From Subtercola boreus (GTDB lineage Bacteria > Actinomycetota > Actinomycetes > Actinomycetales > Microbacteriaceae): a stretch of DNA of 64,000 nucleotides. The notes beneath the pieces are model-generated. The model did no database searches. It saw only the letters and a program-made list of their open reading frames with translations, and was not told the origin of the DNA. The stretch's first letter is position 1; each line of letters begins with the position of its first letter. The position numbers and the translations under genes were made by a program. The DNA lies in NCBI RefSeq assembly GCF_003399625.1, contig NZ_NBXA01000003.1:62001-126000 (forward strand). Reading direction: 5' to 3'. This document shows positions 48,377 to 62,666 of this stretch, piece after piece.

Positions 48377-50688
48377 AGATCGTCACGCTTGTCACCACCG
48401 AGTTCCGCCGTCTCACGGCGACCGGGTTGGCGCGGTTGGCGCTCGTCGCCCTCATGCTCGTTCCGGTGCTGTACGCGGGCCTCTACCTCTGGGCGAACAG
48501 CGACCCGTACGGGAGCATCAAGAACATTCCGGTGGCCCTGGTCGTCGAAGACACCGGATCCACTCTCGACGGCACGGCCGTGAACTACGGCGCGCAGGTG
48601 CACGATCAGCTGATCGCCGACAACAGCGTCAAATGGGAGGACGCGACCGCCGAACAGGCGGCATCCGGAGTGAAGAACGGTGAGTACGACTTCGTGCTGA
48701 CCCTCGGCCCCGACTTCTCGAAACTGCTCACCTCGGCGGGAACCGCAACGCCCCAGCAGGCCGTCGTGCAGCTCACCACGAACGACACGAACAGCTTTCT
48801 CGCCTCCTCCATCGCCGCCACCGTCGCCGAGAAGGTGCGGCTGAGCATCAGCGAGCAGGTCGGTGAGGCTGCGGCGCTGCAGTTCCTGAACGGGTTCGCC
48901 ACCATCCACGACAACCTGTCGACCGCGGTGGATGGCGCGAACCAGCTCGTCGACGGCACGGGTCAGGCCGAGTCGGGGTCGGCGAGGCTCGCCGACGGTG
49001 CCGCCACGGCGAACACCGGAGCAGAGGCGCTCGCCTCAGGTGCGGCGACGGCTGCAACCGGCGCGTCGACGCTCGCGACAGGTGCTGCGTCGGCGGCTAC
49101 CGGCTCGGCCACGCTGGCCGATGGCGCCTCGCAACTGGCTGCGGGAGCATCCACTCTGTCGACCGGTGCGCGAGCGAGCGCCGACGGCGCGTCGACCCTG
49201 GCATCGGGGGCAGCGCAGACGAACGCCGGTGCCCAGAGTCTCAGCTCGGGGCTGTCGACCCTCAGCAACGGGGTCGCAGGCCTGCCGGCTGACACCACCC
49301 GCCTGGCTGCCGGGGCAGAGCAGGTCGCCGACGGGAATGCGGCCCTCGCCTCGGCGGCTGACTCGGTGACGACCGCGACCAAGGATGCTGCAGACCAGGT
49401 ACCCGTCGTACGGAGCGAGATCGTTGCCGGGCTGAAGGCCCAGGGGCTGACCGACGCGCAGATCGAGAAGGCGATCGCCCCGCTCGACACGGTCGGTACG
49501 GCGATCACGGACGGCAGCAAGCAGGCCGAGCAACTCGACGCCCAGGTGTCGGAGCTCTCGGGCGCCGCCGCCCAGGTCGCGGCCGGAACGAAGAAGCTCG
49601 CCGACGCGGCACCCGGTCTCGCCGACGGAGCAGCGAACGCCGCTGCCGGTGCCGCAACACTGGCGGGAGGCACGGCCCAGGTCGAGGCGGGAGCGTCGGC
49701 TCTGGCTGGCGGAACGCAGAAGGTCGCCGACGGCGCCTCCACGCTCTCGTCGTCGGCCGCACAGCTCTCGGCCGGGGCATCCACGCTGGCCTCCGGTACC
49801 GCGCAGGTCTCCGATGGGGCGGCCACGCTGGCGGAGGGTAACGGCCAACTGGCAGAGGGGGCATCCACCCTCGCCGGCGGAACCCAGCAGCTCGCCGACG
49901 GTTCCGCGACGCTCGCGTCGGGCGCCGCACAGCTCGACACCGGTGCGGTGAAGCTGCGGGACGGGCTCGTCTCCGGGGTCGACCAGATCCCGTACTACAC
50001 GCCCGACCAGCGGCAGACGGCGGCGGCGACCATCGCCACCCCGGCCGTCGTCGACACCGACACGGTCACCAAGGCGACGACGTACGGCGCCGGCATGGCT
50101 CCGTTCTTCATCAGCCTGGCGGCCTGGATCGGGATCTACGCGCTGTTCCTCATCATCAAGCCGCTGTCACGGCGCGCACTGACCGCCATCAAGGCTCCGC
50201 TTCGCGTGACGGCGGCGGGCTGGCTCGCCCCTGCACTCCTCGGTGCGTTGCAGATGGCTGCGGTGTACTTCGTGGTGACCGTGCCGCTCGGCTTCACCGT
50301 GGCGAACCCCGCTCTCATGCTGTCGTTCATGGTGTTCACGTCGATCACGTTCGTGGCGATCATCGGGGCGCTGAACATCTGGCTGGGCAGCGTCGGGCAG
50401 TTCCTCGGGCTCGTGCTGATGGTACTGCAGCTGGTCACAGCGGGCGGTACCTTCCCCTGGCAGACGCTGCCCGGGCCGTTGGCGGCGCTGCACCACGTGC
50501 TGCCGATGAGCTACGCGGTGGACGGCATCCGGCAGCTGATGTACGGCGGTGACCTGTCGCTCGCGCTGAACGACGTGGGAGTGCTTGCCATCTGGTTGCT
50601 CGGGGCACTGGCGTTCTCGATGTTCCTGGCGCGCAAGAAGACTGCGGCGCGGACTCTCCGCGACCTGCGCCCCTCGCTGATCGGCTGA
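48373..50688 (+). CDS. YhgE/Pip-domain membrane protein
   Basis: A 771-residue protein. An N-terminal helix (LARLALVALMLVPVLYAGLYLWA) and a conserved LVVEDTGSTLDGTAVNYG segment match the YhgE/Pip family (phage-infection protein, EsaA-like). A central ~350-residue extracellular domain has regular Ala/Gly repeats (LASGAxxxATGASxLATGAxx; seven-residue period). Then five helices with an ABC-2-like layout follow (MAPFFISLAAWIGIYALFLI to LGALAFSMFLA). The start is ATG 48373, coupled to the ABC-like gene. Members serve as transport or envelope-assembly components. The partner and cargo are unknown. Confidence 0.88.
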   Translation: MKIVTLVTTEFRRLTATGLARLALVALMLVPVLYAGLYLWANSDPYGSIKNIPVALVVEDTGSTLDGTAVNYGAQVHDQLIADNSVKWEDATAEQAASGVKNGEYDFVLTLGPDFSKLLTSAGTATPQQAVVQLTTNDTNSFLASSIAATVAEKVRLSISEQVGEAAALQFLNGFATIHDNLSTAVDGANQLVDGTGQAESGSARLADGAATANTGAEALASGAATAATGASTLATGAASAATGSATLADGASQLAAGASTLSTGARASADGASTLASGAAQTNAGAQSLSSGLSTLSNGVAGLPADTTRLAAGAEQVADGNAALASAADSVTTATKDAADQVPVVRSEIVAGLKAQGLTDAQIEKAIAPLDTVGTAITDGSKQAEQLDAQVSELSGAAAQVAAGTKKLADAAPGLADGAANAAAGAATLAGGTAQVEAGASALAGGTQKVADGASTLSSSAAQLSAGASTLASGTAQVSDGAATLAEGNGQLAEGASTLAGGTQQLADGSATLASGAAQLDTGAVKLRDGLVSGVDQIPYYTPDQRQTAAATIATPAVVDTDTVTKATTYGAGMAPFFISLAAWIGIYALFLIIKPLSRRALTAIKAPLRVTAAGWLAPALLGALQMAAVYFVVTVPLGFTVANPALMLSFMVFTSITFVAIIGALNIWLGSVGQFLGLVLMVLQLVTAGGTFPWQTLPGPLAALHHVLPMSYAVDGIRQLMYGGDLSLALNDVGVLAIWLLGALAFSMFLARKKTAARTLRDLRPSLIG

Positions 50689-50722
50689 CCGACTGAGCTG
50701 TCGCCGCGTGGGTGCGTGACTG

Positions 50723-50781
50723 AAAGAGGATGACAGCAGCGGTACGGCCCCCAGGGGCTTACCGGGCGCGTCATCCTCTTT
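50723..50781 (+). terminator. Terminator-like repeat, family 2, second copy
   Basis: AAAGAGGATGA pairs with TCATCCTCTTT, followed by TACG; an inner GGTA/TACC plus GGCCCC/GGGGC stem extends the hairpin. It ends the TetR/YhgE operon and faces the convergent oxidoreductase gene. The ends match 22934-22990. Confidence 0.78.
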
Positions 50782-50821
50782 TACGTGCAGGCGGGGGGCG
50801 GGGACGGGCGCGGACGCCGCC

Positions 50822-52402
50822 TCAGTTCACGTGCACCTTGATGGTGTGCCAACCCGTGGAGCCGTCGGGCGCGGGGGGAGCCTCGTCGGAGGTCTGCGTG
50901 TAGCCGCCGTCGTCTGTTGCGCGCACGGAGATGGCGTGATCGCCCGAGGGCGCATCCCACTGCAGCACCCACTGCCGCCAGGTGTCCGCGGAGATGGCAT
51001 CGGCGAGGGTGGCCTTCTGCCAGTCGCCGCCATCGACCTGCACCTCGACGCCCTGCACACCGGTGTGCTGGGCCCACGCGACGCCGGCGATCGGGATCGT
51101 TCCGGCGCTGAGGCTGCTGCCCTGCCGGGGAGTGTCGATGCGTGAGGAGGTCTTGATCGGGCCGAGGGCGGTCCAGCCGCGCGGGGTCCAGTAGCCCATG
51201 TCGGCGGCGAACGTGGTCACCTTCATCTCCACGACCCACTTCGTGGCCGAGACGTACCCGTAGAGCCCGGGGACCACCATGCGCACGGGGAAACCATGCT
51301 CGACGGGCAGCGGCGATCCGTTCATCCCGACCGCCAGAAGGGAGTCACGCTGGGTGTCCTGCAACACCTCGAGCGGAGTGCCGGCCGTGAAACCGTCGGA
51401 GCTCCGGGAGAGCACCATGTCGGCCCCCGCCGTGGGCTTGGCGCGCGCAAGGAGGTCGCGGATCGGGTAGCCCAGCCAGAGGGCGTTGCCGATGAGGTCG
51501 CCGCCGACCTCGTTCGAGACGCAGGTGAGCGTGGTGTAGTTCTCGACCAGCGGCAGGGCGAGGAGGTCAGCGAAGGAGATCTCCACCTCGTTCTCGACCA
51601 TGCCGACGATCTTGAGGCTCCAGGTGTCGGGGTTCAGCTGCGGCACCTGCAACGCTGTGTCGATGCGGTAGAAGTCGGCTGCCGGCGTGACGACGGGGCT
51701 GAGGTTCGTGATTCCGAGTTCGGTTCCGGCGGGCAGTGCGGCTGCGGGAGTGGATGCCGCGGGCAAAACGAGAGCGTTCCGGGCGGCCGTGACGACTGCT
51801 GCCCCGGCGTTCATCACGCGGGCACCGGCTCCGACGATGGCCGAGGCGGCTGCCGCGACGACCACCCAGGTCAGGAACTGGCGGCGTTCGAGCGCTGCGG
51901 GGGCGGTGCGGATGGCGCGGGTGCCGCCCGCTCGGGCTGCCGGGCGGCTCGCAGCCGAGTCGGCGCGCACGACCCAGCGTCGCAGGCGCGTCTGGAGCGC
52001 GTTCAGCACGACGACTCCCACGAGCATCCCGACCACTGTGGGCACGGCGGAGATGCCGGAGGCGCCCTGCCGCGTGGTCACGGCGAACACCGCGATCGCC
52101 GAGAAGACCACGAGGATCACGGTGCCGATGGGGCGGCGACGGTACTCCAGCCAGCCCGCGAGGGCGGCGCCCACCGCCACCACGATGGCGAGGATGGTGA
52201 GCAGCGCGGCCTTGTCTCCGGTACCGAAGAGCGAGATCGTCAGCTCTTTGACGCCGGGCGGTGCGAGGTCGATGACCAGGGAGCCCACGGCGAAGAGCGG
52301 ACTGGACTCAGCACCGACAAAAAGCGCGACCAGCTCGGCTGAGGCGAGAACGCTCGCCGCAGCGACAATGCCCGTGAGGGCGGCCCACATTCCGCGTCGC
52401 AT
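50822..52402 (-). CDS. Membrane-anchored molybdopterin-dependent oxidoreductase (sulfite oxidase fold)
   Basis: A 526-residue protein. About four helices occupy residues 5-140, then RRQFL at 173-177 precedes a fifth helix and resembles a Tat motif. The molybdopterin domain is extracellular: LTLTCVSNEVGG-like sequence (here YTTLTCVSNEVGGDLIGNALWLG) gives Cys294, the molybdenum ligand, and FPVRMVVPGLYGYVSATKWV is family-typical. A C-terminal Ig-like dimer domain follows. ATG 52402 is preferred: TAGGGT is 6 bases upstream. Function may be sulfite or protein-methionine-sulfoxide chemistry; substrate unknown. Confidence 0.9.
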   Translation of the reverse strand: MRRGMWAALTGIVAAASVLASAELVALFVGAESSPLFAVGSLVIDLAPPGVKELTISLFGTGDKAALLTILAIVVAVGAALAGWLEYRRRPIGTVILVVFSAIAVFAVTTRQGASGISAVPTVVGMLVGVVVLNALQTRLRRWVVRADSAASRPAARAGGTRAIRTAPAALERRQFLTWVVVAAAASAIVGAGARVMNAGAAVVTAARNALVLPAASTPAAALPAGTELGITNLSPVVTPAADFYRIDTALQVPQLNPDTWSLKIVGMVENEVEISFADLLALPLVENYTTLTCVSNEVGGDLIGNALWLGYPIRDLLARAKPTAGADMVLSRSSDGFTAGTPLEVLQDTQRDSLLAVGMNGSPLPVEHGFPVRMVVPGLYGYVSATKWVVEMKVTTFAADMGYWTPRGWTALGPIKTSSRIDTPRQGSSLSAGTIPIAGVAWAQHTGVQGVEVQVDGGDWQKATLADAISADTWRQWVLQWDAPSGDHAISVRATDDGGYTQTSDEAPPAPDGSTGWHTIKVHVN

Positions 52403-52408
52403 GCTCAA

Positions 52409-52414
52409 ACCCTA
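52409..52414 (-). promoter_or_regulatory. -10 box of the leaderless molybdopterin oxidoreductase gene
   Basis: TAGGGT on the minus strand, 6 bases before ATG 52402. This supports that ATG over the in-frame TTG two codons upstream. Confidence 0.5.
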
Positions 52415-52432
52415 CGCCGCCTCTGCTTGGTG

Positions 52433-53710
52433 TCACCTGCGAGGCCGCTGGACAGCGGGGCGGGCGGAGCGCGCGAGGCCGAGGTACACCGCCAGCGCGA
52501 CCACGCTCACCGCCGCGAGGAGCGCCACCGCCCACGTCACCCCGAGAGCATCGAACACCGAGCCGAGCGCGAGGGGGCCCACCACAGCACCCGCATCGCC
52601 GACCGTGCGGAAGAGGCCGACCGCCCCGCCCACCCGCGACCGCGGCGTGACATCGGCGAGGATCACGCCCGGCACGAGACTTCCGACGCCCGAGAGCACC
52701 CCGGTCGCCACGATGAGCGCGCCGAAGAACCAGGGCGACTGCGCCAGCGGATAGAGGCAGATCGCGCCCGCCGCCAACAGGGTGGGAACGATGAGCAACC
52801 CGAGGCGCGCGCCCGCGTTCAGACGGCGGCCGACCCACGGGAGCAGGGCGAGCGACACCACGGTCGTCAGACCGTAGGCGATCCCGAGCGTGAGCGGCGT
52901 GAGCCCGCCCCGGTCATATGCCAGAAGAGGAATGAGCGACTGGTCGCCGCCGAACCGCACGAAGAAGATGCCGAAGGCGAGCACGCAGATGCCGACCAGC
53001 ACGCGCCGGCGAGCCCGGGCATCCATGCTGCCCGCGGGTGCGGATGCCGCACCGACCTCCGAGGCACCTCCCCCGGTGTCGGGGGTCTCTGCAGCGGCAT
53101 CGCGCACGAACTCCGACGACCAGAAAGCCGGGCTGGGGCGCACCAGCGCCCAGACGATCACCCCGATCAGCGGGATCGCCGCCACCACGAAGACGAGCGG
53201 AAGCGTGCCGAACGTCAGTACGACGCCGCCGAGCACCGGACCCACCGCCGCTCCCGCCAGTTGCACGGCCTGTACGGTCGACAGGATCGAGCCCCGGTTC
53301 GCGGGCGTGGTGCGCTGGGTGAGCACCGCGAGCCCCACCGTGACGGCCGCGCCGCCCAGGATGCCCGCCAGGAACCGTGCCGCGATGAGCAGCACGACGT
53401 TGTCGATGAAGCCGGTGACGAGGGTGAGCAGGGCGAGGGCTCCGGTGGCGCCCAACAGCAGAGTCCGGGCGGGCACGCGCTTCAGGAGGAGCCCGGCGGG
53501 CACATTCACGAGCAGCCGCCCGAGCCCGAACGACGACACGATCAGCCCCAGGATGACCGCCGAGGCACCGAACTGCTGGGCGTACTGCGGCAGCGCCGGC
53601 ACCAGCGCACCCCACGTCATCTGGGAGGTGCCGACCAGCGCGCAGACGAGAATGACCTGCTCCCAGGGCACCTCGAGGCCCGCCGGCGGTTTCCGGGAGG
53701 TATCGGTCAC
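52433..53710 (-). CDS. MFS transporter of the Rut-like operon
   Basis: A 425-residue protein with twelve helices. Motif A-like sequences FGLGRLLVNVPAGLLLKRVPAR and LLPWVGRRLNAGARL mark both halves. A central loop of about 40 Ala/Gly/Pro-rich residues separates them. It starts at GTG 53710, overlapping the stop of the upstream monooxygenase by GTGA, so it is the last gene of a seven-gene operon. It may export a breakdown product or take up an alternative substrate. Confidence 0.9.
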   Translation of the reverse strand: MTDTSRKPPAGLEVPWEQVILVCALVGTSQMTWGALVPALPQYAQQFGASAVILGLIVSSFGLGRLLVNVPAGLLLKRVPARTLLLGATGALALLTLVTGFIDNVVLLIAARFLAGILGGAAVTVGLAVLTQRTTPANRGSILSTVQAVQLAGAAVGPVLGGVVLTFGTLPLVFVVAAIPLIGVIVWALVRPSPAFWSSEFVRDAAAETPDTGGGASEVGAASAPAGSMDARARRRVLVGICVLAFGIFFVRFGGDQSLIPLLAYDRGGLTPLTLGIAYGLTTVVSLALLPWVGRRLNAGARLGLLIVPTLLAAGAICLYPLAQSPWFFGALIVATGVLSGVGSLVPGVILADVTPRSRVGGAVGLFRTVGDAGAVVGPLALGSVFDALGVTWAVALLAAVSVVALAVYLGLARSARPAVQRPRR

Positions 53711-55038
53711 GCGAGCAGGTTCTCGCGGAGGGTCCCGCCGGGGTAGGCGGGCCCGACCGCACCACGCCGGCGGAGTTCCGGCGCCAGCAACTCCACTACG
53801 TCGGCGAGCGACGACGGGGTCGAGAGCGGGTTCGCGATCATGAATCCCCCGCGGGATCCTGTCGCCTCGAAGTTCTCCTCCAGAGCGTCGGCAACCGAGG
53901 CGGCCGTGCCGGCGTAGGTCTGGTCGTACCCGGTGGCGTAGCGCCAGCCCCGCTCGAAGAATTCGTCGCGCGACATCCGTGCGTCTTCGCCCACTTCGTC
54001 GATGACGAGTTGCACGAACCCGGCCTGGGTTCCTTCGGCGAGCCGGATCTGCTCCGCGACATCCGACAGGGTGAACGAACGGGCGAGGGTCGAGAAGTCG
54101 AAACCGCTGTTGTAGGAGAGGTATGCGCCGACCGCCTCGTGGCTCCAGACGTCGAGCATGGCCTCCTTGCGGGCGGCGGCCTCGTCGGCGGTGCGACCGA
54201 GGATCACCTGCACCGCCCAGAGGATCCCCACGCGAGCGGGATCCCGGCGGGCAGCGGCGAGCGCGGCATCCAGAGCCGTGCGGTGCCGCTGCTGCGATGT
54301 GAGGTGCCCGCCGATGCCGAAGATGATGTCGGCGAACTGGGCGGAGGCCGCGATTCCGCGGGGCGACGAACCGGCCTGCACGACAACGGGATGTCCCTGC
54401 GGGCTCGGCACCGAGTTGAGCGGCCCCTGCACCGCGAAGTGCGCTCCGCGGTGGTCGATCCGGTGCACACCGGCAGGGTCGCCGAAGACTCCGGTGGAAC
54501 GGTCTGCGACGATCGCCGAGGGGTCCACCGAGTCCCAGAGGGCGGCGCAGACCGCCATGAACTCCTCCATGCGGTCATAGCGTTCGCCGTGCGGCGGCAG
54601 CATGTCGAAACCGTAGTTGCGCGCATCCGAGACCCGGGTCGACCCGACCACGTTGAACGCGATGCGCCCGCCGGTCACGTGGTCGAGCGAGTTGAGCAGC
54701 CGGGCCACGTAGTAGGGGTGCATGAACGTCGAGGAATATGTCAGCCCGAAACCGACGTGCGAGGTCACCTGCGCCATGGCGGCGATGTACGGGCTCATGT
54801 CCTGCCTCGGCCACTGGATGCCCCACTTCACGGCCGCGTCGAGAGAACCCTGCCAGGTGTCAGGAATACTCGTTCCGTCGCCGAAGAAGAGCATGTCGAT
54901 GCCGCCGCGCTCCGCAAGAACGGCGAGCTCCTGGAACATGCGCACATCGGGATATGTCCGGCCCTCCCACGACCCGGGGCTCGCCCACTTGCCCTCGGTG
55001 TGCGTGAAGGAGAGGTCGAATGCGAGGTGCATGGTCAT
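53707..55038 (-). CDS. NtaA/DmoA-type FMN-dependent monooxygenase
   Basis: A 443-residue luciferase-superfamily enzyme. LAFDLSFTHTEGKWASPGSWEGRTYPDVRMFQELA, VGFGLTYSSTFMHPYYVARLLNSLDHVTGGRIAFNVVGST and HGERYDRMEEFMAVCAALWDS follow the NtaA/SnaA/DmoA pattern. These proteins oxidise C-N or C-S compounds with FMNH2 from a separate reductase. The start is ATG 55038, overlapping the RutB-like stop by ATGA. No flavin reductase gene lies in the operon. Being next to RutA- and RutB-like genes, it may act on a related heterocycle or side chain. Confidence 0.88.
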   Translation of the reverse strand: MTMHLAFDLSFTHTEGKWASPGSWEGRTYPDVRMFQELAVLAERGGIDMLFFGDGTSIPDTWQGSLDAAVKWGIQWPRQDMSPYIAAMAQVTSHVGFGLTYSSTFMHPYYVARLLNSLDHVTGGRIAFNVVGSTRVSDARNYGFDMLPPHGERYDRMEEFMAVCAALWDSVDPSAIVADRSTGVFGDPAGVHRIDHRGAHFAVQGPLNSVPSPQGHPVVVQAGSSPRGIAASAQFADIIFGIGGHLTSQQRHRTALDAALAAARRDPARVGILWAVQVILGRTADEAAARKEAMLDVWSHEAVGAYLSYNSGFDFSTLARSFTLSDVAEQIRLAEGTQAGFVQLVIDEVGEDARMSRDEFFERGWRYATGYDQTYAGTAASVADALEENFEATGSRGGFMIANPLSTPSSLADVVELLAPELRRRGAVGPAYPGGTLRENLLA

Positions 55039-55733
55039 GAGGCGAGCCTCCAGAGCGCGACCACGTCGGCCGAGGTCACGACGACCCCGCTGTTCAGCGC
55101 CACATTCGCCAGCGAGTTCGCCTGGAGCTCGGCGTCGTAGGACGCCGTCGCGTCGGCGGGCACGAGCACCGGCCAGCCGGCCTGGAACGCGTCGCGGGCC
55201 GTCGCGTCGACGCAGCAGTCGATCGTGAGGCCCACGATACTCACCCAGTCGATGCCCCGCTCGCGGAGTTCGGCCTCGAGCGTCGTGCCGAAGAACCCGC
55301 TGTAGCCGCGCTTCGTCACGACGAGCTCGCCCTCGGCGGGCGCCATTCCGAACCACTCCGCCCCGGGGGTGCCGAGCACACACGGCTCGTCGGCTGCCGG
55401 CCAGGGCTGGTCGGCCGGGATGTCGCGGAGCCACAGTGACGACTTCCACGGCCTGTCGGCGGTCTGTCCGAGCTGGATCCACACCACCGGAGTGCCGAGT
55501 GCGCGGGCATCCTCGACGAGCGCGGCCACGGAGGCGACCGTCTGCGCGATGACGGGCAGACGGTCGGCGTCGACCCAGGGCAGATAGTCGGGGTCGGCGA
55601 AGGAGCGCTGCACATCGACCACGAGCAACGCTCCGGTCTGGCCCGGCCTGGTGAGCGCCGCGAGCTGTCGCTCGCGAAGACCCGCGTTCGGCTGGTCGGC
55701 GCCGTGCAGGTCGCCACCAGCCGTCTCGTTCAC
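55035..55733 (-). CDS. Isochorismatase-family hydrolase, RutB-like
   Basis: A 232-residue cysteine hydrolase. Asp40 (LLVVDVQRSF), Lys141 (VVTKRGYSGFFGTTL) and Cys174 (LTIDCCVDATARDAF) form the expected triad. KRGYSGFF.T.L followed by RERGID resembles RutB, the ureidoacrylate amidohydrolase of uracil breakdown. It starts at GTG 55733, sharing GTGA with the stop of the RutA-like gene. In the Rut pathway RutB acts directly after RutA, which matches the order here. Confidence 0.85.
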   Translation of the reverse strand: MNETAGGDLHGADQPNAGLRERQLAALTRPGQTGALLVVDVQRSFADPDYLPWVDADRLPVIAQTVASVAALVEDARALGTPVVWIQLGQTADRPWKSSLWLRDIPADQPWPAADEPCVLGTPGAEWFGMAPAEGELVVTKRGYSGFFGTTLEAELRERGIDWVSIVGLTIDCCVDATARDAFQAGWPVLVPADATASYDAELQANSLANVALNSGVVVTSADVVALWRLAS

Positions 55734-56866
55734 AGCGACATCCGCTCGTCGAACGAGGCGAGGAGCCCGGAGGTGTCAGCCCCTGCAGTCGAGGCGGCCC
55801 CGGCCTGGCCGGCGCCCGACCGATCCCCGCGGAGTTTCGGCATGACCTGTTCACCGAACGGCGGCAGGTCGTCGTGGTACTCGGGGAAGACGATCATCAG
55901 CCCGTCGATGTCCGACGTCTCCATCAGCTCGTCGATGCGCTCGTGAATCGTCTCGGGCGATCCCGTCACCACGGCCGTCTGGAACGCCTCGAACTCCGGC
56001 CTGTCGGCGCTCATCGACATCGCCTTGTCAAGCGGAAGGCCCCACGAGAGCTTCATGTTCACAATCGCCTCGGTGTCGACCCCGCGGCCGTACTCGCGGA
56101 AGCGGGCCTCGGCCCGGGCATCCGTCTCGTCCATCACGACCGTGAGCATCGAATAGGTCTTGATCTCGCGACCCTGGGCGGCCGCCAGCTCCTTCACCTC
56201 GAGGCTGTTCTCGCGGAGGCCCGGCATGTCGGCGGCCGTCAGGAACGACCCGTCGACCCGCTTCGACTGGAAGTCGAGCCCCCGCGGGGAGCGCCCGGCG
56301 CTGATGAGCGTCGGATGCACGGTCGGGTGCGGCCGCGACTCGCAGTCGTCGAGCGTGAAGAACTCGCCGTGGTGGGTCACCGAGTCCTCGGCCCAGAGCC
56401 GCTCGATCACCTCGACCCACTCCTCGGTGTAGCGATAGCGGGTGTCGTGGTCGAAGTCGCTCCGCCACTGGCCCATCTGCTCGAACTCCCGGGCGTAGGC
56501 CCCGACGACGATGTTCAGTCCTGATCGCCCGTTGCTGATCTGGTCGAGCGTGGTGAACATCTTCGCAGCGACCGCGGGGTGGATGATGTTGGTGTGCACG
56601 GTGGCCCAGATCTTCACCCGGGTGGTCGCCTCGGCGAGCGCCGCCATCAGCGTGATCGACTCGAGCGTCTGGCCCCAGTGGTCGGTCGTGCCGCCGTAGC
56701 CACGCCATTTCGCCATCGACATGATGAAGTCGAAGTCGTTCTGCTCGGCCAGCACGGCCGCCTTGCGGTTGTAGTCGTAGGTGGCCTGGGGGTGGGGCGC
56801 CGTGGTCGACATCACCCACCCCCCGTTGCCGATCGGCAGGAAGATGCCGTATTCGCGCTGTTTCAC
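55730..56866 (-). CDS. RutA-like pyrimidine monooxygenase
   Basis: A 378-residue FMN-dependent enzyme. GIFLPIGNGGWVMSTTAPHPQATYDYNRKAAVLAEQNDFDFIMSMAKWRGYGG and LNIVVGAYAREFEQMGQW align by pattern with RutA, which opens the uracil ring between N3 and C4. Differences from RutA near the C-terminus mean another pyrimidine-like ring is possible. The start is ATG 56866; the gap to the binding-protein gene is 21 bases. The electron donor must come from elsewhere, as no rutF is present. Tail residues are Gly/Ala-rich. Confidence 0.85.
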   Translation of the reverse strand: MKQREYGIFLPIGNGGWVMSTTAPHPQATYDYNRKAAVLAEQNDFDFIMSMAKWRGYGGTTDHWGQTLESITLMAALAEATTRVKIWATVHTNIIHPAVAAKMFTTLDQISNGRSGLNIVVGAYAREFEQMGQWRSDFDHDTRYRYTEEWVEVIERLWAEDSVTHHGEFFTLDDCESRPHPTVHPTLISAGRSPRGLDFQSKRVDGSFLTAADMPGLRENSLEVKELAAAQGREIKTYSMLTVVMDETDARAEARFREYGRGVDTEAIVNMKLSWGLPLDKAMSMSADRPEFEAFQTAVVTGSPETIHERIDELMETSDIDGLMIVFPEYHDDLPPFGEQVMPKLRGDRSGAGQAGAASTAGADTSGLLASFDERMSL

Positions 56867-56887
56867 GGGTGGAACTCCTCAGTTCGG

Positions 56888-57994
56888 TTACGGGGCCGGC
56901 CAGATGAGCTCGGTGCCGTTGTAGATGGCCGACACGATCGACGGGTCGGTGAAGGCCGAGACATCCGGAGCCGCCGTGAGCTGCTTGCTGTCGACGAGGA
57001 ACGAGATCTCCTTGGCCATCAGGTCGGTGTTCAGCGAGCCGAGCGGCGTGCCGGCCGGCTGCGACGACGTGACAAGACCGGTCTCGGTCTTCCACACCTC
57101 CACGTTGTGGTCGACGTCGTAGCTCGCGCCACCGCCGGCGAGGGCGGCTGCGTAGCCGACGCACTCCGCGGCGTTCGTCTCGCAGTAGGTGTAGGCGTGG
57201 AACGCCGCGCGCAGGAAGTCCTCGGTCGTCGCCGTGTTGGCGGTGACGAACGCCGGGTTGGCGACGACGGTTCCGAACGTGCCCGGGATGCCGTAGTCCT
57301 CCGGGTTCCAGAGCTTCACATCGTCCCCGGCGGCCTTCAGTGTGAGCGGCTCATTCGACTTGTAGCCGGTGAGCGACTGCACCTGGCCACGCGGCAGGAT
57401 GGTCGGGTCGTAGCCCACCACGACCTGGGTGATCTTCGAGACATCCACGCCGTTCGCGACGAGCATCGCGTTGATCTCGGGCGGCAGCTGGCCCTTCTGG
57501 CCGAGCGTCGTGCCTTCGAGCTGCTTGAGGTCGGTGATGTCGGTACCGGTCATCAGGGTCGTGATCGGAACCTGCCCGTAGGTCGCGATCGCTGTCACGT
57601 CCACCCCGTTCGACTGGGCGAGCAGCAGGTCGGAGTCACCTCCGAGGTCGGTGACCGTCGCCGTGCCAGCGGCCACGAGCTGGGCATTGCCGGCCGTGTC
57701 ACCCGTGCCGGGCTGGATCTGCACGTCGAGGCAGAGTGCATCGAAGTAGCCGAGCTCCTTCGCCGCGAGGATGTCGAGGATCGACGCCGACGCCTGGTAC
57801 TGGAAGCCCGTGATGTAGGTGATCGTGCCGGCGGCCTTGTTCGAGGCGCAGCGGTCTGCGGAGATGGCGCTGGCTGCCGACGCGGCGGGCGTCGAGGTGG
57901 AGATGCCGGAGTTCGAGCATCCGGCGAGCGCAAGCGCGGCAGCGGTCGCGACGGCGGCGAGGGTGATGAGGCGGGAGGTACGTCGGGTGGGCAT
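56888..57994 (-). CDS. ABC transporter substrate-binding lipoprotein (NMT1/THI5-like)
   Basis: A 368-residue secreted lipoprotein. The signal LITLAAVATAAALALAGC ends in a lipobox (LAGC). The mature part (ITYITGFQYQASASILDILAAKELGYFDALCLDVQIQPGTGDTAGNAQLVAAGTATVTDLGGDSDLLLA) fits the NMT1/THI5 fold used for thiamine-pyrimidine, riboflavin, sulfonate and similar ligands. Cys-containing YTYCETNAAECVGYAA is distinctive. The start is ATG 57994, with AGGAG 7 bases upstream. It presumably captures the ring compound broken down by the next genes. Confidence 0.88.
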   Translation of the reverse strand: MPTRRTSRLITLAAVATAAALALAGCSNSGISTSTPAASAASAISADRCASNKAAGTITYITGFQYQASASILDILAAKELGYFDALCLDVQIQPGTGDTAGNAQLVAAGTATVTDLGGDSDLLLAQSNGVDVTAIATYGQVPITTLMTGTDITDLKQLEGTTLGQKGQLPPEINAMLVANGVDVSKITQVVVGYDPTILPRGQVQSLTGYKSNEPLTLKAAGDDVKLWNPEDYGIPGTFGTVVANPAFVTANTATTEDFLRAAFHAYTYCETNAAECVGYAAALAGGGASYDVDHNVEVWKTETGLVTSSQPAGTPLGSLNTDLMAKEISFLVDSKQLTAAPDVSAFTDPSIVSAIYNGTELIWPAP

Positions 57995-58098
57995 ATCTGA
58001 CTCCTGATTCGGGGAAGGGGCAGAGAAACGGGTGCTGTGGTGCGGGTGGAAAGGAGAGGGAGAAGGAAGGGGCGAAGGAGGGCGGTGCGCGCGAGCGC
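57995..58098. other. Intergenic polypurine tract between permease and binding-protein genes
   Basis: The 104-base gap holds a purine-rich stretch on the plus strand (about 58048-58084), so the transcript is pyrimidine-rich there. It is the largest gap in the operon. No hairpin was seen; it may allow a separate promoter or processing site for the binding protein, which is usually needed in excess. Confidence 0.4.
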
Positions 58099-59040
58099 TC
58101 AGCCGCGCTTCAGCAGCTGCGACTCGTGCCAGCGCAGAACCCGCTTCTCGAGCAGCGTCACGAGGAACAGCAGCACCGCACCCATGATCGCCAGGCACAG
58201 GATGGCCGCGTAGACCACCGCCAGCCGGGAGTTGGATGACGCCACGCTGATCACCGTGCCGAGCCCCTTCGCCGCGCCCGGGGCAGAGAACTCCGCCACC
58301 ACAGCGCCGACGATCGACAGCGGGAAGACCACCTTCAACGCCGCGAACACATACGGCAGGCTCGATGGGAGCCGGAGGCGTGTCAGCACCTCCAGCCGCG
58401 AGGCCCTGAGCGTGGCGAACACCTGCAGGATCGGCGGCGACACCGAGTTGAGCCCCGTGATCACGTTCATCAGGATCGGGAAGAACGTGATGAGCGCCGT
58501 GACGATGAGCTTCGGTGCCGGCCCGAATCCGAACGCGACGACCAGCGCGGGGGCGATCGCCACCACCGGCGTGACGTTCAGCACGACGGCCAGCGGCATG
58601 ATCGCCCGTCGGAGGATCCCGGATTCCGTCACGATCACTGCCACGATGAACGCCGCCACAAACCCGATCACGAGGCCGATCAGGGCCTCCGACAGAGTGA
58701 TCCAGGCGTTCTCGAGGTAGAACGAGGGCTGCGTGATGATGGCCTGGCCGATCATCCCGAGCCGCGGCAGCAGGTACGTGTTGTTGATCGCAATGAGCTC
58801 CCACAGCACACCGGCCACGAGGAGCGCGACGACGACAGGCAGCCAGATCGTCGGGCGGAGGATCGACCGGCGCGGGTTCGACCGGCGGGGTGTCGACCGG
58901 CTGACGGATGTCGCGGCTGCCGCCGTTCCGGATGCGGTGGCCGCGGTGGCGATCGCGGTGTCGGTGGTGTCGAGAGGCAGCGCAGCATTTCTCGCGGCGT
59001 CGCTTCTCGCCGCATCGTTTCGTACAGCGTGGTTCGTCAT
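58099..59040 (-). CDS. ABC transporter permease
   Basis: A 313-residue BPD_transp_1-type protein. A long hydrophilic N-terminus (about 60 residues) precedes six helices. The cytoplasmic EAA-like loop is TLRASRLEVLTRLRLPSSLPYVFAALKV, contacting the ATPase. This layout is that of SsuC/TauC/ThiX importers. The start is ATG 59040, overlapping the ATPase stop by ATGA. Confidence 0.9.
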   Translation of the reverse strand: MTNHAVRNDAARSDAARNAALPLDTTDTAIATAATASGTAAAATSVSRSTPRRSNPRRSILRPTIWLPVVVALLVAGVLWELIAINNTYLLPRLGMIGQAIITQPSFYLENAWITLSEALIGLVIGFVAAFIVAVIVTESGILRRAIMPLAVVLNVTPVVAIAPALVVAFGFGPAPKLIVTALITFFPILMNVITGLNSVSPPILQVFATLRASRLEVLTRLRLPSSLPYVFAALKVVFPLSIVGAVVAEFSAPGAAKGLGTVISVASSNSRLAVVYAAILCLAIMGAVLLFLVTLLEKRVLRWHESQLLKRG

Positions 59041-59885
59041 CGGGCCACCGGCCCTGAAGCCCACGCGGTCTGGAGCTTGCCGCGGATGAGGTCCTCGTAC
59101 TCGTGCATGGCCGCCGACTCGAGTAGCCCCTGCCGGCGAGGTCGTGGCAGGTCGATGTCGACCACTGCTTCGATACGGCCGGGCCGGGCCGACATCACCA
59201 CCACCCTGTCGCTCAGCACGACAGCCTCGGAGACCGAATGCGTCACGAAGACGACGGTGGTGCGCATCTGCTCCCAGAGTTCGAGCAGCTGCAGCTGGAT
59301 CGCCTCGCGGGTGAACTCGTCGAGGGCCGAGAACGGTTCGTCCATCAGCAGCACGTCGGCCTGGATGGCGAAGGCCCGGGCGATCGCGACCCGCTGCTGC
59401 ATACCGCCGGACAGCTGGTGGGGCAGGCGGTCGAGCGCATCGCCGAGCCCGATCTTGGCCAGCAGGGCACGCGGATCGGCGGGGTCACGGTGAACGTGTC
59501 CGGGGAGAGTGCGCCGCAGCGCATCCGCCCGCCGGTTGACCTTCGACGGCAGCGTGACGTTGCCGACGACCGAGAGCCAGGGCAGCAGGGCCGGAACCTG
59601 CGGAACGAAACCGATCATCTTCGCAGCGCACGCCTGGTCGGGATCGGCCCCGAACACGGAGACATCGCCGGAGTCGGCCGTCTCGAGCCCCGCAATGAGG
59701 CGGAGCAGCGTCGACTTGCCGCAGCCCGACGGGCCGATGATGCTGACGAACTGGCCCCGGTCGACGGTGAGGTCGACGTGCGAGAGCGCCGTCACCTGAG
59801 CGGAGGAACCGGAACCGCCATAGATTTTGAGCGCGTCACTGACCACGATCTGGTCGGGTGAAGCATTCGCACGCGTTGTGCTCAC
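59037..59885 (-). CDS. ABC transporter ATP-binding protein
   Basis: A 282-residue ATPase with intact motifs: Walker A GPSGCGKST, signature LSGGMQQR, Walker B VLLMDEPFSALD and switch VTHSVSEA. It is typical of the SsuB/TauB/ThiZ group. The start is GTG 59885, with GGAGG 6 bases upstream. It is the first gene of the minus-strand operon. The operon promoter should lie in 59886-60145. ATPase, permease and binding protein together form a complete importer. Confidence 0.93.
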   Translation of the reverse strand: MSTTRANASPDQIVVSDALKIYGGSGSSAQVTALSHVDLTVDRGQFVSIIGPSGCGKSTLLRLIAGLETADSGDVSVFGADPDQACAAKMIGFVPQVPALLPWLSVVGNVTLPSKVNRRADALRRTLPGHVHRDPADPRALLAKIGLGDALDRLPHQLSGGMQQRVAIARAFAIQADVLLMDEPFSALDEFTREAIQLQLLELWEQMRTTVVFVTHSVSEAVVLSDRVVVMSARPGRIEAVVDIDLPRPRRQGLLESAAMHEYEDLIRGKLQTAWASGPVAR

Positions 59886-60145
59886 AGTGGGCCTCCGGCA
59901 TCGTGAAACAGCCTTGAGTCCATTAAAACGTGAATTCGGCCCATCTGGCCCTCCGGTGGTTTTCTCGTGGGTGCTGGCGCTCACGGACATCCTGTGCTGG
60001 CGGATGTTCGAAGCGGACTCGAGACGACGGGAGAGCGGGCGGAAGCGCAGGTCGACGGCCCGCGGGATCGTTGACATCCACGACACTAGGCGGGTCGTGT
60101 TTCGCGGAAGCCACCCATCGTGTTTCGGGCGTGTATCTTTTGGCC
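59886..60145. other. Divergent promoter region of the Rut-like operon and DUF4190 gene
   Basis: A 260-base region. It carries the plus-strand -10 TATCTT (60134-60139). On the minus strand an AT-richer stretch near 59910-59935 (TTTTAAT, TTCACG) could serve the operon. I saw no clear repressor palindrome and no gene. Confidence 0.4.
60134..60139 (+). promoter_or_regulatory. -10 box of the leaderless DUF4190 gene
   Basis: TATCTT, 6 bases before ATG 60146; no ribosome-binding site. Confidence 0.55.
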
Positions 60146-61033
60146 ATGAGCACCCTGCCACAGCCGTCGCAACCGGATCGCCCGAACCTCAACGCCCTCG
60201 CGATCCTCTCGCTCGTGAGCGCCTTCTTCCTCTCGCTGATGGCGGTGATCACCGGGCACGTCGCCCTCTCGCAGATCCGTCGCACAGGCGAGCGCGGTCG
60301 GGAGTTCGCCCTGGCCGGCCTCATCATCGGCTACATCGGCCTGCTCAGCGGCTTCGTCGTGACCGTTCTGACCATCGTGGCGATCGTGTTCGCCGCGGCA
60401 TCCGGAGCCTTCATCACCCACCGCAACGTGTTCACCACCCCTGGTCCGGATGCGCGGGGGCCCGGCAGCACGGCCGTTCCAGCGCCCACCGCCGCCCCCT
60501 ACGCACCAGCAGCCCCTGACGCACCGGATACGTCAAGCGACATCACCTTCGCCGCGGGCACCACCCTCCGCGCCGGGATCGTGCCGCACATCAGTGACGG
60601 ACTCCTCGGGGACAAGCTGTGGAAACTCACCACGCCCAAGGCCGACGGAACCTGGGTCTACTCCTCCACAGACGGGCGCTGCACGACGACGTTCCACGAG
60701 GGCGCCCTCGCCGCCGATCTCGACATCACGGCGGGCGACGACCTCGCCACCACCGACAGCTACCTCGCCGCCCTCACGTCGAGCTCGGCATCGGATGTCG
60801 CGGACTACGCCGACGACGACTACATCGCTCTCGGCCAGCCCGACGACAGCACCATCGTCGACACCCGCCGCCTCGCCGGGAACGACAGCAGCGGGCGCCC
60901 CCACGTGGCCGTCGCTCGCGCCTTCGCCGCGCTCGACCAGGGCGTCTCCATCAACATCGCCTGCGACACCAAATCGCAGGCCATCGACGCCTACGACCAC
61001 GTGCTCACCGCAACGGCGCTTCTCGTCAACTGA
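60146..61033 (+). CDS. DUF4190-domain membrane protein with exported C-terminal domain
   Basis: A 295-residue protein. Residues ~15-95 form the two-helix DUF4190 module (LNALAILSLVSAFFLSLMAVITGHVALSQIRRTGERGREFALAGLIIGYIGLLSGFVV), with the typical GHxALxQIRRTGExG loop. A Pro/Ala-rich linker leads to an extracellular domain (~135-295) with two Cys and many Asp. The start is ATG 60146, leaderless after TATCTT. Function is unknown; C-terminal domains of such proteins often bind ligands or partners at the surface. Confidence 0.85.
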   Translation: MSTLPQPSQPDRPNLNALAILSLVSAFFLSLMAVITGHVALSQIRRTGERGREFALAGLIIGYIGLLSGFVVTVLTIVAIVFAAASGAFITHRNVFTTPGPDARGPGSTAVPAPTAAPYAPAAPDAPDTSSDITFAAGTTLRAGIVPHISDGLLGDKLWKLTTPKADGTWVYSSTDGRCTTTFHEGALAADLDITAGDDLATTDSYLAALTSSSASDVADYADDDYIALGQPDDSTIVDTRRLAGNDSSGRPHVAVARAFAALDQGVSINIACDTKSQAIDAYDHVLTATALLVN

Positions 61034-61039
61034 CCCGGC

Positions 61040-61513
61040 TCAGGCCGCGTACGCAGCAGCCACGTCGAGGATCCACGTCACGCCGAAGCGATCGGTGAGC
61101 ATCCCGAAGCCGGGGCTCCAGGCCGGCGCCGCGAGCGACTCGACGACGGTGCCGCCGACCGAGAGTGCGGACCAGTAGCCCTGGACTTCCTCGAGGGTCT
61201 CGCCGCGCGCCGAGACGAAGAACGACTGGTCGGTCAGGGTCACACCGTTCTCGCGGTGCGTCGAGCCAGCCACACCGGCAGAGGCCGAACTAATACTGGC
61301 CTCCCCCGGCACGTCATATGCCATCACCCGGAACCCGTTCTCGCTCCCGACCTGGCCGAAGACGACATTCGAAGCGCCCGGGGCCCCTGCGGGCATCCCG
61401 AAGTCTCCATACGTCGCGATGACGAGCGGGCCGCCGAAGACGGACTGGTAGAACTCGAGTGCCGCCCGCGCCTCGCCGCGGAAGTTCAGGTGGGTCGTCG
61501 TCTGGATGCTCAT
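61040..61513 (-). CDS. VOC-family protein, PhnB/glyoxalase-like
   Basis: A 157-residue protein. QTTTHLNFRGEARAALEFYQSVFGGPLVIATYGDFG is the PhnB-type start (3-demethylubiquinone-9-methyltransferase-like fold). FRVMAYDVPG and GMLTDRFGVTWILDV complete the module, but metal ligands are uncertain. The start is ATG 61513, with AAGGAG upstream. It is divergent from a WYL regulator, a common pairing that suggests control by it. Confidence 0.9.
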   Translation of the reverse strand: MSIQTTTHLNFRGEARAALEFYQSVFGGPLVIATYGDFGMPAGAPGASNVVFGQVGSENGFRVMAYDVPGEASISSASAGVAGSTHRENGVTLTDQSFFVSARGETLEEVQGYWSALSVGGTVVESLAAPAWSPGFGMLTDRFGVTWILDVAAAYAA

Positions 61514-61616
61514 GGTTTCTCCTTGTTCGAAAGGTTCTGCTCGAAGGTGCCGGGTGTCTCCCCGACAACATCGACTCTCCCAGCCGTCTAGGACAGTTTC
61601 GGTCCTCCACTCGAAC

Positions 61617-61622
61617 TACCCT
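61617..61622 (+). promoter_or_regulatory. -10 box of the leaderless WYL regulator gene
   Basis: TACCCT, 6 bases before ATG 61629. Confidence 0.5.
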
Positions 61623-61628
61623 GAGATC

Positions 61629-62648
61629 ATGGCGACAACGACCACGCGACTGCTGAACCTGCTCTCCCTGCTCCAGGCGAGGCGCGACTGGCCGGGTGCC
61701 CTCCTGGCCGAGCGGCTCGAGATCAGTCACCGAACAGTGCGCCGCGACGTGGACCGGCTCCGGGAGATGGGCTACAGCATCCGGGCCACGATGGGACCGG
61801 ATGGCGGCTACCGCCTCGACGCCGGCACCGAGCTTCCGCCCCTTCTCTTCGACGATGACCAGGTCATCGCCCTCGCCGTCGCCCTGCAGTCGGCAACCGT
61901 CACCGGCGCCGGAATCGAGGAGGCGGCACTCCGGGCCCTCACCACCGTGCGGCAGGTCATGCCCTCACGCCTCCGCCACCGACTCGATGCGCTCCGGTTC
62001 GAGGTGATCCTCTCCCGACCCGTCGACTCCGTGCCCGCCACGGTCTCACCGGAGCTGCTGATCGCCCTGTCGACGGCGACGCGCGCTCGCGAAGTGCTGC
62101 GGTTCGACTACCTGAACGTCCGGGAGGATCCCGCCGCACCGAGACCACCCCGACGCGTGGAGCCGCACCACCTCGTGTCCTCCCAGGGCCGGTGGTACCT
62201 CGTGGCGTGGGACCTCGACCGCAACGACTGGCGCCTCTTCCGCGCCGACCGCATCACCCTCCGCACGCCGAACGGCCCCCGATTCGAACCCCGGGCGATC
62301 CCCGGCGGCGACGTCGGCGAGTATGTCGCCGCGCGCTTCAAAGGGTCCGAGAGCACCAACGTCTGGCCCTGCCGGGGAAAGGTCATCCTCTCCCTGCCCG
62401 TGGACGCAGTGCTGCCCTACGCCGAAGACGGCCTCGTCGAAGAACTCGACCCCGAACGCTGCACCCTGGAGTCTGGCGCCTGGTCATGGATCGCCCTCGC
62501 CGCCTCCCTCACCCGCTTCGACACCGACATCGACGTCATCGAACCGCCCGAACTCACCGAAGCGTTCGCCGCACTCGCAGCGCGTGCCGCCGCCACCGCC
62601 ACCGCCTCCGCCACCGCCCGAGCCGGAGCAGCATCACACTCGCCGTAG
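61629..62648 (+). CDS. HTH/WYL-domain transcriptional regulator (YafY-like)
   Basis: A 339-residue regulator. An N-terminal helix-turn-helix (RLLNLLSLLQARRDWPGALLAERLEISHRTVRRDVDRLREMGYSIRATMGPDGGYRL) precedes the WYL domain (VLRFDYLNVRE, VEPHHLVSSQGRWYLVAWDLDRNDWRLFRADRI), a likely ligand- or nucleic-acid-sensing fold. An Ala-rich tail ends it. ATG 61629 is taken because TACCCT lies 6 bases upstream; upstream in-frame starts overlap the VOC promoter. It probably controls the divergent VOC gene. Confidence 0.92.
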   Translation: MATTTTRLLNLLSLLQARRDWPGALLAERLEISHRTVRRDVDRLREMGYSIRATMGPDGGYRLDAGTELPPLLFDDDQVIALAVALQSATVTGAGIEEAALRALTTVRQVMPSRLRHRLDALRFEVILSRPVDSVPATVSPELLIALSTATRAREVLRFDYLNVREDPAAPRPPRRVEPHHLVSSQGRWYLVAWDLDRNDWRLFRADRITLRTPNGPRFEPRAIPGGDVGEYVAARFKGSESTNVWPCRGKVILSLPVDAVLPYAEDGLVEELDPERCTLESGAWSWIALAASLTRFDTDIDVIEPPELTEAFAALAARAAATATASATARAGAASHSP

Positions 62649-62666
62649 GCCCTTCGGCTCCGGGGG

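Follow-up and report, generated by a model that had tools for sequence, protein, structure and literature searches.

A seven-gene operon of Subtercola boreus with RutA-like and RutB-like enzymes as a candidate module for the degradation of an N-heterocycle

The 64,000-nucleotide stretch analysed here (the window; C3:62001-126000 of a Subtercola boreus genome of 4.12 Mb in 95 contigs) contains an operon of seven genes, which, on balance, we take to be an accessory actinobacterial catabolic module acting by the RutA-type opening of an N-heterocyclic amide bulkier than uracil. The seven open reading frames (ORFs), read on the minus strand from position 59885 to 52433, encode the ATPase, the permease, and the binding lipoprotein of an ATP-binding cassette (ABC) importer, a RutA-like monooxygenase, a RutB-like amidohydrolase, a monooxygenase of the NtaA/DmoA type, and a transporter of the major facilitator superfamily (MFS). 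An earlier note on this sequence had described the set as an NMT1-type importer paired with RutA- and RutB-like enzymes, with rutC to rutG missing. All seven ORFs and family assignments were found as described, and the E. coli proteins RutC, RutD, RutE, RutF, and RutG gave no match in the window (tblastn, E<=1e-5). The observation of the note is confirmed; its interpretation is partly supported. The first two enzymatic steps probably work like those of the Rut pathway, although neither enzyme passes the family tests for Rut proteins.

Results

The RutA-like enzyme keeps the oxygen site and loses a tryptophan

With the RutA model TIGR03612, the RutA-like protein scored 270.9 bits and failed the equivalog test (cut-off 498.3 bits); E. 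coli RutA itself reached 726.4 bits. An identity as SfnG-type sulfone enzyme was rejected, as membership in TIGR04021 failed with 180 bits against a cut-off of 382.95 bits. In the comparison of folds, the structure model (mean predicted local distance difference test value, pLDDT, of 88) matched RutA best, with a template modelling (TM) score of 0.91 on the target and 35% identity; SfnG was second.

Relatives were taken from a scan of species genomes, which gave 257 stretches encoding a relative; these may include other luciferase-like enzymes. The best 80 of the 257 were analysed, and these 80 loci therefore lean toward close relatives. The residue alignment comprises 81 module rows, which represent the window and 79 of the 80 loci, one of them contributing two copies; locus L098 was omitted as a copy of G021. 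Residues T105, N134, V136, F224, M67, and K69 of E. coli RutA are conserved in 81 of 81 rows. According to an excerpt of a review, the oxygen pocket is lined by T105, N134, and V136, all of which RutA requires for activity, with T105S as an exception (PMC7662398). The position of W139, which flanks the si-side cavity of RutA in the excerpted text of PMC10005588, is occupied by serine in 46 rows and by alanine in 35, among them the window. Moreover, L65 is replaced by methionine and Q140 by tyrosine in all rows, and five other RutA relatives from the same genomes retain W139. Because the oxygen-site residues are kept and the large W139 is lost, we infer that the enzyme would combine the oxygen chemistry of RutA with a wider substrate side; the module presents a RutA relative with an altered substrate side. 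In a tree, the module clade and its proteobacterial sisters were split from E. coli RutA and the five relatives containing W139 (support 100/99).

The partner enzymes and the importer

The RutB-like protein reached 65.4 bits in the RutB test (TIGR03614, cut-off 377.95 bits) and 70.4 of the 370 bits needed for a biuret amidohydrolase, and failed both. It passed as a cysteine amidohydrolase of the isochorismatase fold, with 129 bits for PF00857 and an Asp-Lys-Cys triad. The triad positions, which we take to be D24, K133, and C166 in E. coli RutB, are conserved in 66 of 66 RutB-like proteins. Identity with the uracil pathway was rejected on the failed RutA and RutB memberships.

The NtaA/DmoA-type enzyme is a full member of TIGR03860 (368.6 bits, cut-off 279.7 bits), and all 55 of 55 proteins of this type have T, N, V, and F where RutA has its oxygen-site residues. 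The operon therefore encodes two oxygenases that agree in these four residues. Among 21 solved sequences, the dibenzothiophene sulfone monooxygenase DszA was the best match (231 bits), and the riboflavin lyase RcaE ranked ninth (161 bits). An identity as RcaE-type lyase was discarded, as RcaE is not the best solved match and the membership test failed.

The binding protein passed the test for NMT1/THI5-like proteins (PF09084, 101 bits, cut-off 20.5 bits). It matched ThiY with 56 bits alone and with 80 bits as a profile of 28 rows, followed by the clostridial protein 4nmy and THI5; SsuA reached 19 bits in the profile search. The same ranking was obtained with the structure model (pLDDT 89): ThiY (3ix1) came first with a TM-score of 0.83 on the target, followed by thiamin-bound 4nmy and THI5 and then by TauA and SsuA. 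In the alignment of folds, the binding protein shares 22% identity with ThiY, and its Glu215, which is aligned with a glutamate of ThiY, is invariant in all 28 rows. Permease and ATPase resemble the TauC, SsuC, TauB, and SsuB families among others. The importer part varies between loci: two tandem binding-protein genes occur in L078, L079, and L081, a second binding-protein gene follows the RutA-like gene in L062 and L072, and two importer sets are present in L066 and L067.

Conservation and composition of the module

Among 60 related genomes, close orthologues of the RutA-like protein were found in five of the 11 further genomes of the genus, at 79-97%, and in two additional genera, at 55-56%. 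All seven genes stand in the same order in five of the 11 congeners searched (G001, G003, G008, G009, and G011), and for this reason the arrangement is not due to chance. The nearest named relative is S. boreus P27479, whose RutA-like protein is 97% identical. In the two other genera, importer genes and enzyme genes form two opposite groups, and an additional alcohol-dehydrogenase-type gene, a LacI-like regulator (assigned by eye), and a third monooxygenase are present.

In order to count components, we defined a chain as recognised components on the same strand with gaps of <1000 bp between neighbours; several loci end at contig ends, and the counts are therefore lower bounds. In addition to the RutA-like gene (80), the 80 chains contain genes for the binding protein (73), the permease (72), the ATPase (71), a small protein of about 140 residues (67), the RutB-like enzyme (66), the NtaA/DmoA-type enzyme (54), a PF01613 flavin reductase (49), an SsuE-like reductase (29), a riboflavin kinase (18), and an MFS transporter of a longer type (27) or of the window type (20). 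The fullest clusters of the window type (such as L070, L082, L102, and G281) begin with the small protein, the SsuE-like protein, and the flavin reductase, and continue with ATPase, permease, binding protein, RutA-like, RutB-like, and NtaA/DmoA-type enzymes, and MFS transporter.

Hosts are Microbacteriaceae, Nocardiopsidaceae, Micromonosporaceae, Streptomycetaceae, Pseudonocardiaceae, Streptosporangiaceae, and others. Within Microbacteriaceae the distribution of the RutA-like gene is patchy, with at least 25 of 398 genomes; at most five candidates per genome were scored for the RutA-like gene and 10 for the small protein, and the numbers for this family are lower bounds. A phylum-wide search, which scored at most four candidates per genome, gave at least two of 396 genomes, including the one studied here.

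Flavin supply

RutA requires FMNH2 (reduced flavin mononucleotide, FMN) supplied by a reductase, as stated in the excerpted review (PMC7662398). The window harbours neither a flavin reductase nor the small protein; both are encoded on the same contig. A reductase pair, consisting of a PF01613 gene and an SsuE-like FMN reductase gene, is located at C3:137221-138338, 15.3 kb from the start of the ATPase gene, and the genome has two PF01613 genes in total. The distance from pair to ATPase gene is 2.0 kb in G011 (L037) and about 4.7 kb in S. boreus P27479 (L046); in S. vilae (L049), the ATPase gene is directly preceded by the small protein and by a flavin reductase that belongs to a different subtype. 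The nearest relatives of the displaced pair are pairs within Actinoplanes-type operons (45-50% and 49-59%), and the pair presumably serves the operon of the window. The window copy is a reduced form of the cluster, and L088 and L124, which are uncut chains from other genera, likewise lack reductases and small protein. The earlier note was correct in that RutF is missing from the window, but the genome as a whole does not lack such reductases. Its proposal that a second monooxygenase takes the place of the flavin reductase is not supported, given the 49 of 80 relatives with linked reductases and the pair 15 kb away; the small protein and the riboflavin kinase had been overlooked.

All 18 chains with a riboflavin kinase gene have it downstream of the RutA-like gene. 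The kinase occurs singly, in one ORF with the MFS transporter (L084:13064-14962, confirmed with Pfam; others assigned by position), or, in L074:14308-15093, in one ORF with the small protein. One example per reductase type was checked with Pfam, and the kinase domain PF01687 was found in three examples. We read the kinase as a source of FMN for the two FMN-dependent monooxygenases; flavin as the substrate itself is a possible, though less likely, reading.

A small protein that tracks the RutA-like gene

In this genome, the small protein is encoded at C3:155162-155563, 33 kb from the operon. Twelve aligned rows have lengths of 126-148 residues, and their invariant positions include D55, Q63, R76-N77-K78, D82, K85, and W88; by eye, the Q63 position is apparently glutamate in two divergent copies. 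With Pfam at E<=1, two of three examples from the module had no match, and the third (L049) gave BPL_C with an E-value of 0.12, below the cut-off. Pfam found only the kinase domain in the fused protein of L074 and, at E<=0.01, nothing in the copy of this genome and the relative in G640. One example had no match in NCBIfam, and the best solved sequence had an E-value of 0.44.

Among the 398 Microbacteriaceae genomes, 25 contain the RutA-like gene, 25 the small protein, and 23 both (Fisher p 7e-33, uncorrected for kinship). The two genes are at most 6 kb apart in 19 of these 23; in the remaining four, which all belong to the genus of the window (G000, G001, G008, G009), they lie on the same contig at distances of about 10-37 kb. 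The exceptions are G011 and G651 with only the RutA-like gene, and G640 and G768 with only the small protein, the latter two being the weakest matches. The divergent copy in G640 (L143:6678-7136) lies, by eye, beside apparent genes for subunits of a type I restriction-modification system, and no module gene was seen near the copy in G768. A small protein that accompanies the RutA-like gene in 23 of 25 Microbacteriaceae genomes, and in which the scans found no known domain, is a clear new target.

Operon layout and surroundings

The genes and their coordinates are listed in Table 1. As noted earlier, five of their six junctions are tight: ATGA overlaps join the ATPase and permease genes as well as the RutB-like and NtaA/DmoA-type genes, and GTGA overlaps join the RutA-like and RutB-like genes as well as the NtaA/DmoA-type and MFS genes. 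Gaps of 21 bp and 104 bp separate the binding-protein gene from the RutA-like gene and the permease gene from the binding-protein gene, respectively. For the permease, the ORF list offers a longer GTG start at 59064.

Table 1. Genes of the operon, with coordinates in the window.
Product	Position	Strand	Basis and remarks
ABC importer ATPase, NitT/TauT kind	59037..59885	-	PF00005; best NCBIfam model TIGR01184, 196 bits, under the cut-off of 292
ABC importer permease	58099..59040	-	PF00528; ATGA overlap with ATPase gene
NMT1/THI5-like substrate-binding lipoprotein	56888..57994	-	PF09084, 101 bits; fold nearest ThiY
RutA-like FMN-dependent monooxygenase	55730..56866	-	Oxygen site kept; W139 equivalent is Ala123
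RutB-like isochorismatase-fold amidohydrolase	55035..55733	-	Asp40-Lys141-Cys174
NtaA/DmoA-family FMN-dependent monooxygenase	53707..55038	-	TIGR03860; nearest DszA among solved structures; T100/N129/V131/F240 where RutA has its oxygen-site residues
MFS transporter, final gene of the operon	52433..53710	-	Family searches

A scan for promoters and terminators gave nothing exceeding shuffled sequences. Rfam at E<=1 found one sub-threshold snoRNA match in positions 50000-64000 of the window, which we took as chance. At the gathering threshold, 14 actinobacterial loci (12 of the 80 plus L141 and L147) and seven proteobacterial loci gave one tRNA only, and a riboswitch link to the module was rejected on these scans. 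The second gene past the 3' end of the operon (48373-50688, plus strand) encodes a membrane protein of 771 residues, in which short, degenerate, Gly- and Ala-rich repeats form a long stretch and which by eye resembles the YhgE/Pip type.

Plasmid-borne relatives and parallel loci

A plasmid search matched 1272 records; among the 40 listed, nine hold a relative at 41-49%, above the rest at 35-38%, and eight of these nine were inspected. In Novosphingobium, Paraburkholderia, Acinetobacter, and Kozakia, an isochorismatase-type hydrolase 30-35% identical to that of the window and an MFS gene are present (the latter assigned by eye in the unannotated Novosphingobium record). The hydrolase gene adjoins the RutA-like gene except in Kozakia, where it follows at 4.8 kb; flavin reductases are annotated in the Paraburkholderia, Acinetobacter, and Kozakia loci. 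The other four plasmid loci have Rid-type partners in place of the RutB-like enzyme. In L133 and L138, the RutA-like gene is near TenA and other thiamin-pyrimidine genes. An importer of the PnrA type (BMP), a family that we take to transport nucleosides or bases, adjoins the RutA-like loci of L132, L133, and L138. Two Actinoplanes loci that lack the module importer likewise have one close to the RutA-like gene, with a cytochrome P450 in between in L083. In Cupriavidus, one of the four plasmid loci with Rid-type partners, there is an importer of the NMT1 type together with genes for SsuE-like and flavin reductases. These recurring partners point repeatedly to N-heterocyclic bases, and to no single compound.

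L138:1-9101 (Paracoccaceae plasmid pLA6_003) and L133:102-9487 (a Rhizobium daejeonense plasmid) are possible loci for the degradation of thiamin pyrimidine; they contain TenA, a deformylase or amidohydrolase, an NMT1-type or SsuBC-like importer, and a Rid protein, and L138 has a ribB copy near the RutA-like gene. On contig C26 of the genome studied here (L041:8554-15345), a second RutA relative with W139 (332 bits with TIGR03612) lies in a cluster that also contains a further ABC ATPase and three or more NtaA/DmoA-like monooxygenases (28-32% to that of the window). A parallel locus in L042:4647-12076 and L043:2882-11823 encodes a RutA relative that has W139 and, in L043, scores 380 bits to RutA, along with an NtaA/DmoA-type enzyme (57-58% to that of the window), an MFS transporter (42-43%), a lipoprotein-like gene, and an asparaginase-like protein of 556 residues (PF00710 in L043); no RutB-like match was found in it, and L043 has the flavin reductase pair nearby.

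Discussion

Proposed mechanism

According to our preferred explanation, the NMT1/ThiY-type importer, which is assigned by family, would take up a small N-heterocycle. The RutA-like enzyme would use FMNH2 to form a flavin-N5-peroxide and cleave an endocyclic amide C-N bond in a ring bulkier than uracil, and the RutB-like cysteine amidohydrolase, equipped with the conserved triad, may hydrolyse the amide, ureide, or amidine that is exposed. A second FMNH2/O2 step on the leftover piece could be performed by the NtaA/DmoA-type enzyme, and the MFS transporter may move substrate or product. FMNH2 would be delivered by the PF01613 and SsuE-like reductases, with riboflavin kinase possibly securing FMN in some relatives; the protein of about 140 residues is a regular partner of the module.

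Several points weigh against this explanation. The RutB-like gene is not found in 14 of the 80 chains and the NtaA/DmoA-type gene not in 26, some of them cut at contig ends, so that the route may branch; four loci (L083, L087, L090, L116) have a RutA-like gene without importer in the chain. The tree covers 42 of 95 rows and has long branches (E. coli and others), and the program warns of long-branch joins. To our knowledge, no ligand, activity, or phenotype has been assigned to any member of the module, and no literature on it was found within the open-licence part of PubMed Central. The proximity of the second monooxygenase to DszA is compatible with a sulfur substrate, too, and the NMT1/THI5-like label can be deceptive: genes so named behind the 'NMT1 motif' RNA belong to purine pathways, according to an excerpt of PMC7373994.

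Alternative substrates

The thiamin- or flavin-derived pyrimidine suggested in the earlier note stays conjectural; a few clues from the context lean toward a thiamin-type pyrimidine, and none proves it. A narrower form of our explanation, which we consider possible and which ranks first among the candidate substrates, is that the importer takes up a product of thiamin breakdown and the RutA-like enzyme opens the thiamin pyrimidine (hydroxymethylpyrimidine or its deaminated 4-oxo form). The modelled fold of the binding protein, nearest to ThiY (N-formylaminopyrimidine) and to a thiamin-bound protein, would fit such a substrate, and the loss of W139 would make room for its 2-methyl and 5-hydroxymethyl groups. 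Two of the eight opened plasmid loci have sister RutA-like genes near TenA; L138 adds an annotated N-formylaminopyrimidine deformylase and a deaminase, L133 an amidohydrolase and an NMT1-type importer. However, both are part of a sister clade in which Rid and alpha/beta-hydrolase proteins stand in for the RutB-like partner. Inspection by eye of the neighbour clusters that recur around the 80 loci, without a domain search of all neighbours, revealed no thiamin gene, and the Rfam-scanned loci and window segment (14 actinobacterial and seven proteobacterial loci; 50000-64000) contain no thiamin pyrophosphate (TPP) riboswitch. We regard as doubtful the bolder idea of a dedicated, patchy actinobacterial pathway for a vitamin-derived pyrimidine of the thiamin type, which would use two flavin-N5-peroxide monooxygenases from one operon and depend on an unrecognised small-protein family that tracks the RutA-like gene across genomes, even at distances of tens of kilobases. 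Few catabolic routes for cofactors are well characterised, and those for pyridoxal phosphate, NAD, and riboflavin are named in an excerpt of PMC12746152. With its thiamin-pyrimidine-like importer and two enzymes with RutA-type oxygen sites, the conserved module offers a testable candidate for a route that degrades a further heterocycle.

Scavenging of sulfur from a sulfone or sulfonate, with the RutA-like enzyme acting like SfnG and the second monooxygenase like DszA, is unlikely. It would account for the SsuE-like reductases in 29 of 80 chains, for SfnG as second-best family and fold, for DszA as best solved relative of the second enzyme, and for the resemblance of permease and ATPase to TauC, SsuC, TauB, and SsuB families among others. 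Yet the SfnG score is 180 of the 383 bits needed, RutA exceeds SfnG in the similarity of both sequence and fold, ThiY rather than SsuA is the closer match of the binding protein, and simple desulfonation offers no obvious role for an amidohydrolase whose triad is intact. We think still less of a degradation of flavin or lumichrome, in which the RutA-like enzyme would open the uracil-like ring of the isoalloxazine and the RutB-like enzyme remove urea. In line with it are the 18 of 80 chains that have a riboflavin kinase past the RutA-like gene on its downstream side (sharing an ORF with the MFS transporter in some genera, and once with the small protein) and the relationship of the second monooxygenase to RcaE; but the kinase may just provide cofactor, RcaE is only the ninth-best solved sequence (161 bits versus 231 for DszA), and the scanned loci contain no FMN riboswitch. 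Moreover, the known route is hydrolytic after a P450 step, according to the excerpt of PMC12746152, and no P450 is among the counted components, although no separate search for P450 genes was made and one lies beside the RutA-like gene of L083. Finally, a Rut pathway for uracil or thymine with substituted transport and downstream steps is highly improbable: RutA is indeed the closest solved structure and family, but the scores are far under both equivalog cut-offs, W139 is lost and L65 replaced by methionine in 81 of 81 rows, and the 80 loci have no relative of RutC, RutE, or RutG (tblastn, E<=1e-5). The assumption of the earlier note that importer and enzymes serve a substrate other than uracil is thus probably right.

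Comparison with known systems

In the pathways for pyridine and tetramethylpyrazine, a luciferase-like FMN monooxygenase opens the N-containing ring, an amidohydrolase acts next, and a flavin reductase takes part; the module as proposed shows the same division of labour. With the Rut system of E. coli it shares the adjacent RutA-like and RutB-like genes, the oxygen-site residues, and the Asp-Lys-Cys triad. It differs in the low identities (35% for RutA, 30-31% for RutB), in the missed equivalog cut-offs, in the loss of W139, and in having an ABC importer and a second monooxygenase and no RutC, RutD, RutE, RutF, or RutG in the window. In the tblastn search of the 80 loci (E<=1e-5), RutC, RutE, and RutG gave no match, RutD gave one, which is unlinked, and RutF-like proteins were found in 32.

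Among known families and folds, the ThiXYZ-type importers with ThiY, together with THI5, come nearest to the binding protein, whereas the identity to ThiY is 22% and the Rfam-scanned loci have no TPP riboswitch. The Rca cluster contains RcaE, an actinobacterial FMN-dependent monooxygenase that is a relative, not the closest one, of the second enzyme. In the Lum route, as excerpted from PMC12746152, the pyrimidine ring is opened hydrolytically after a P450 step and urea is then hydrolysed; the order of ring opening and urea hydrolysis is a likeness to the proposed module, whereas the hydrolytic opening after a P450 sets the route apart. The best solved relative of the NtaA/DmoA-type enzyme, DszA, is classed together with RutA among the flavin-N5-oxide enzymes in the excerpted review (PMC7662398); in the operon described here, the relative of DszA stands beside an importer and an amidohydrolase.

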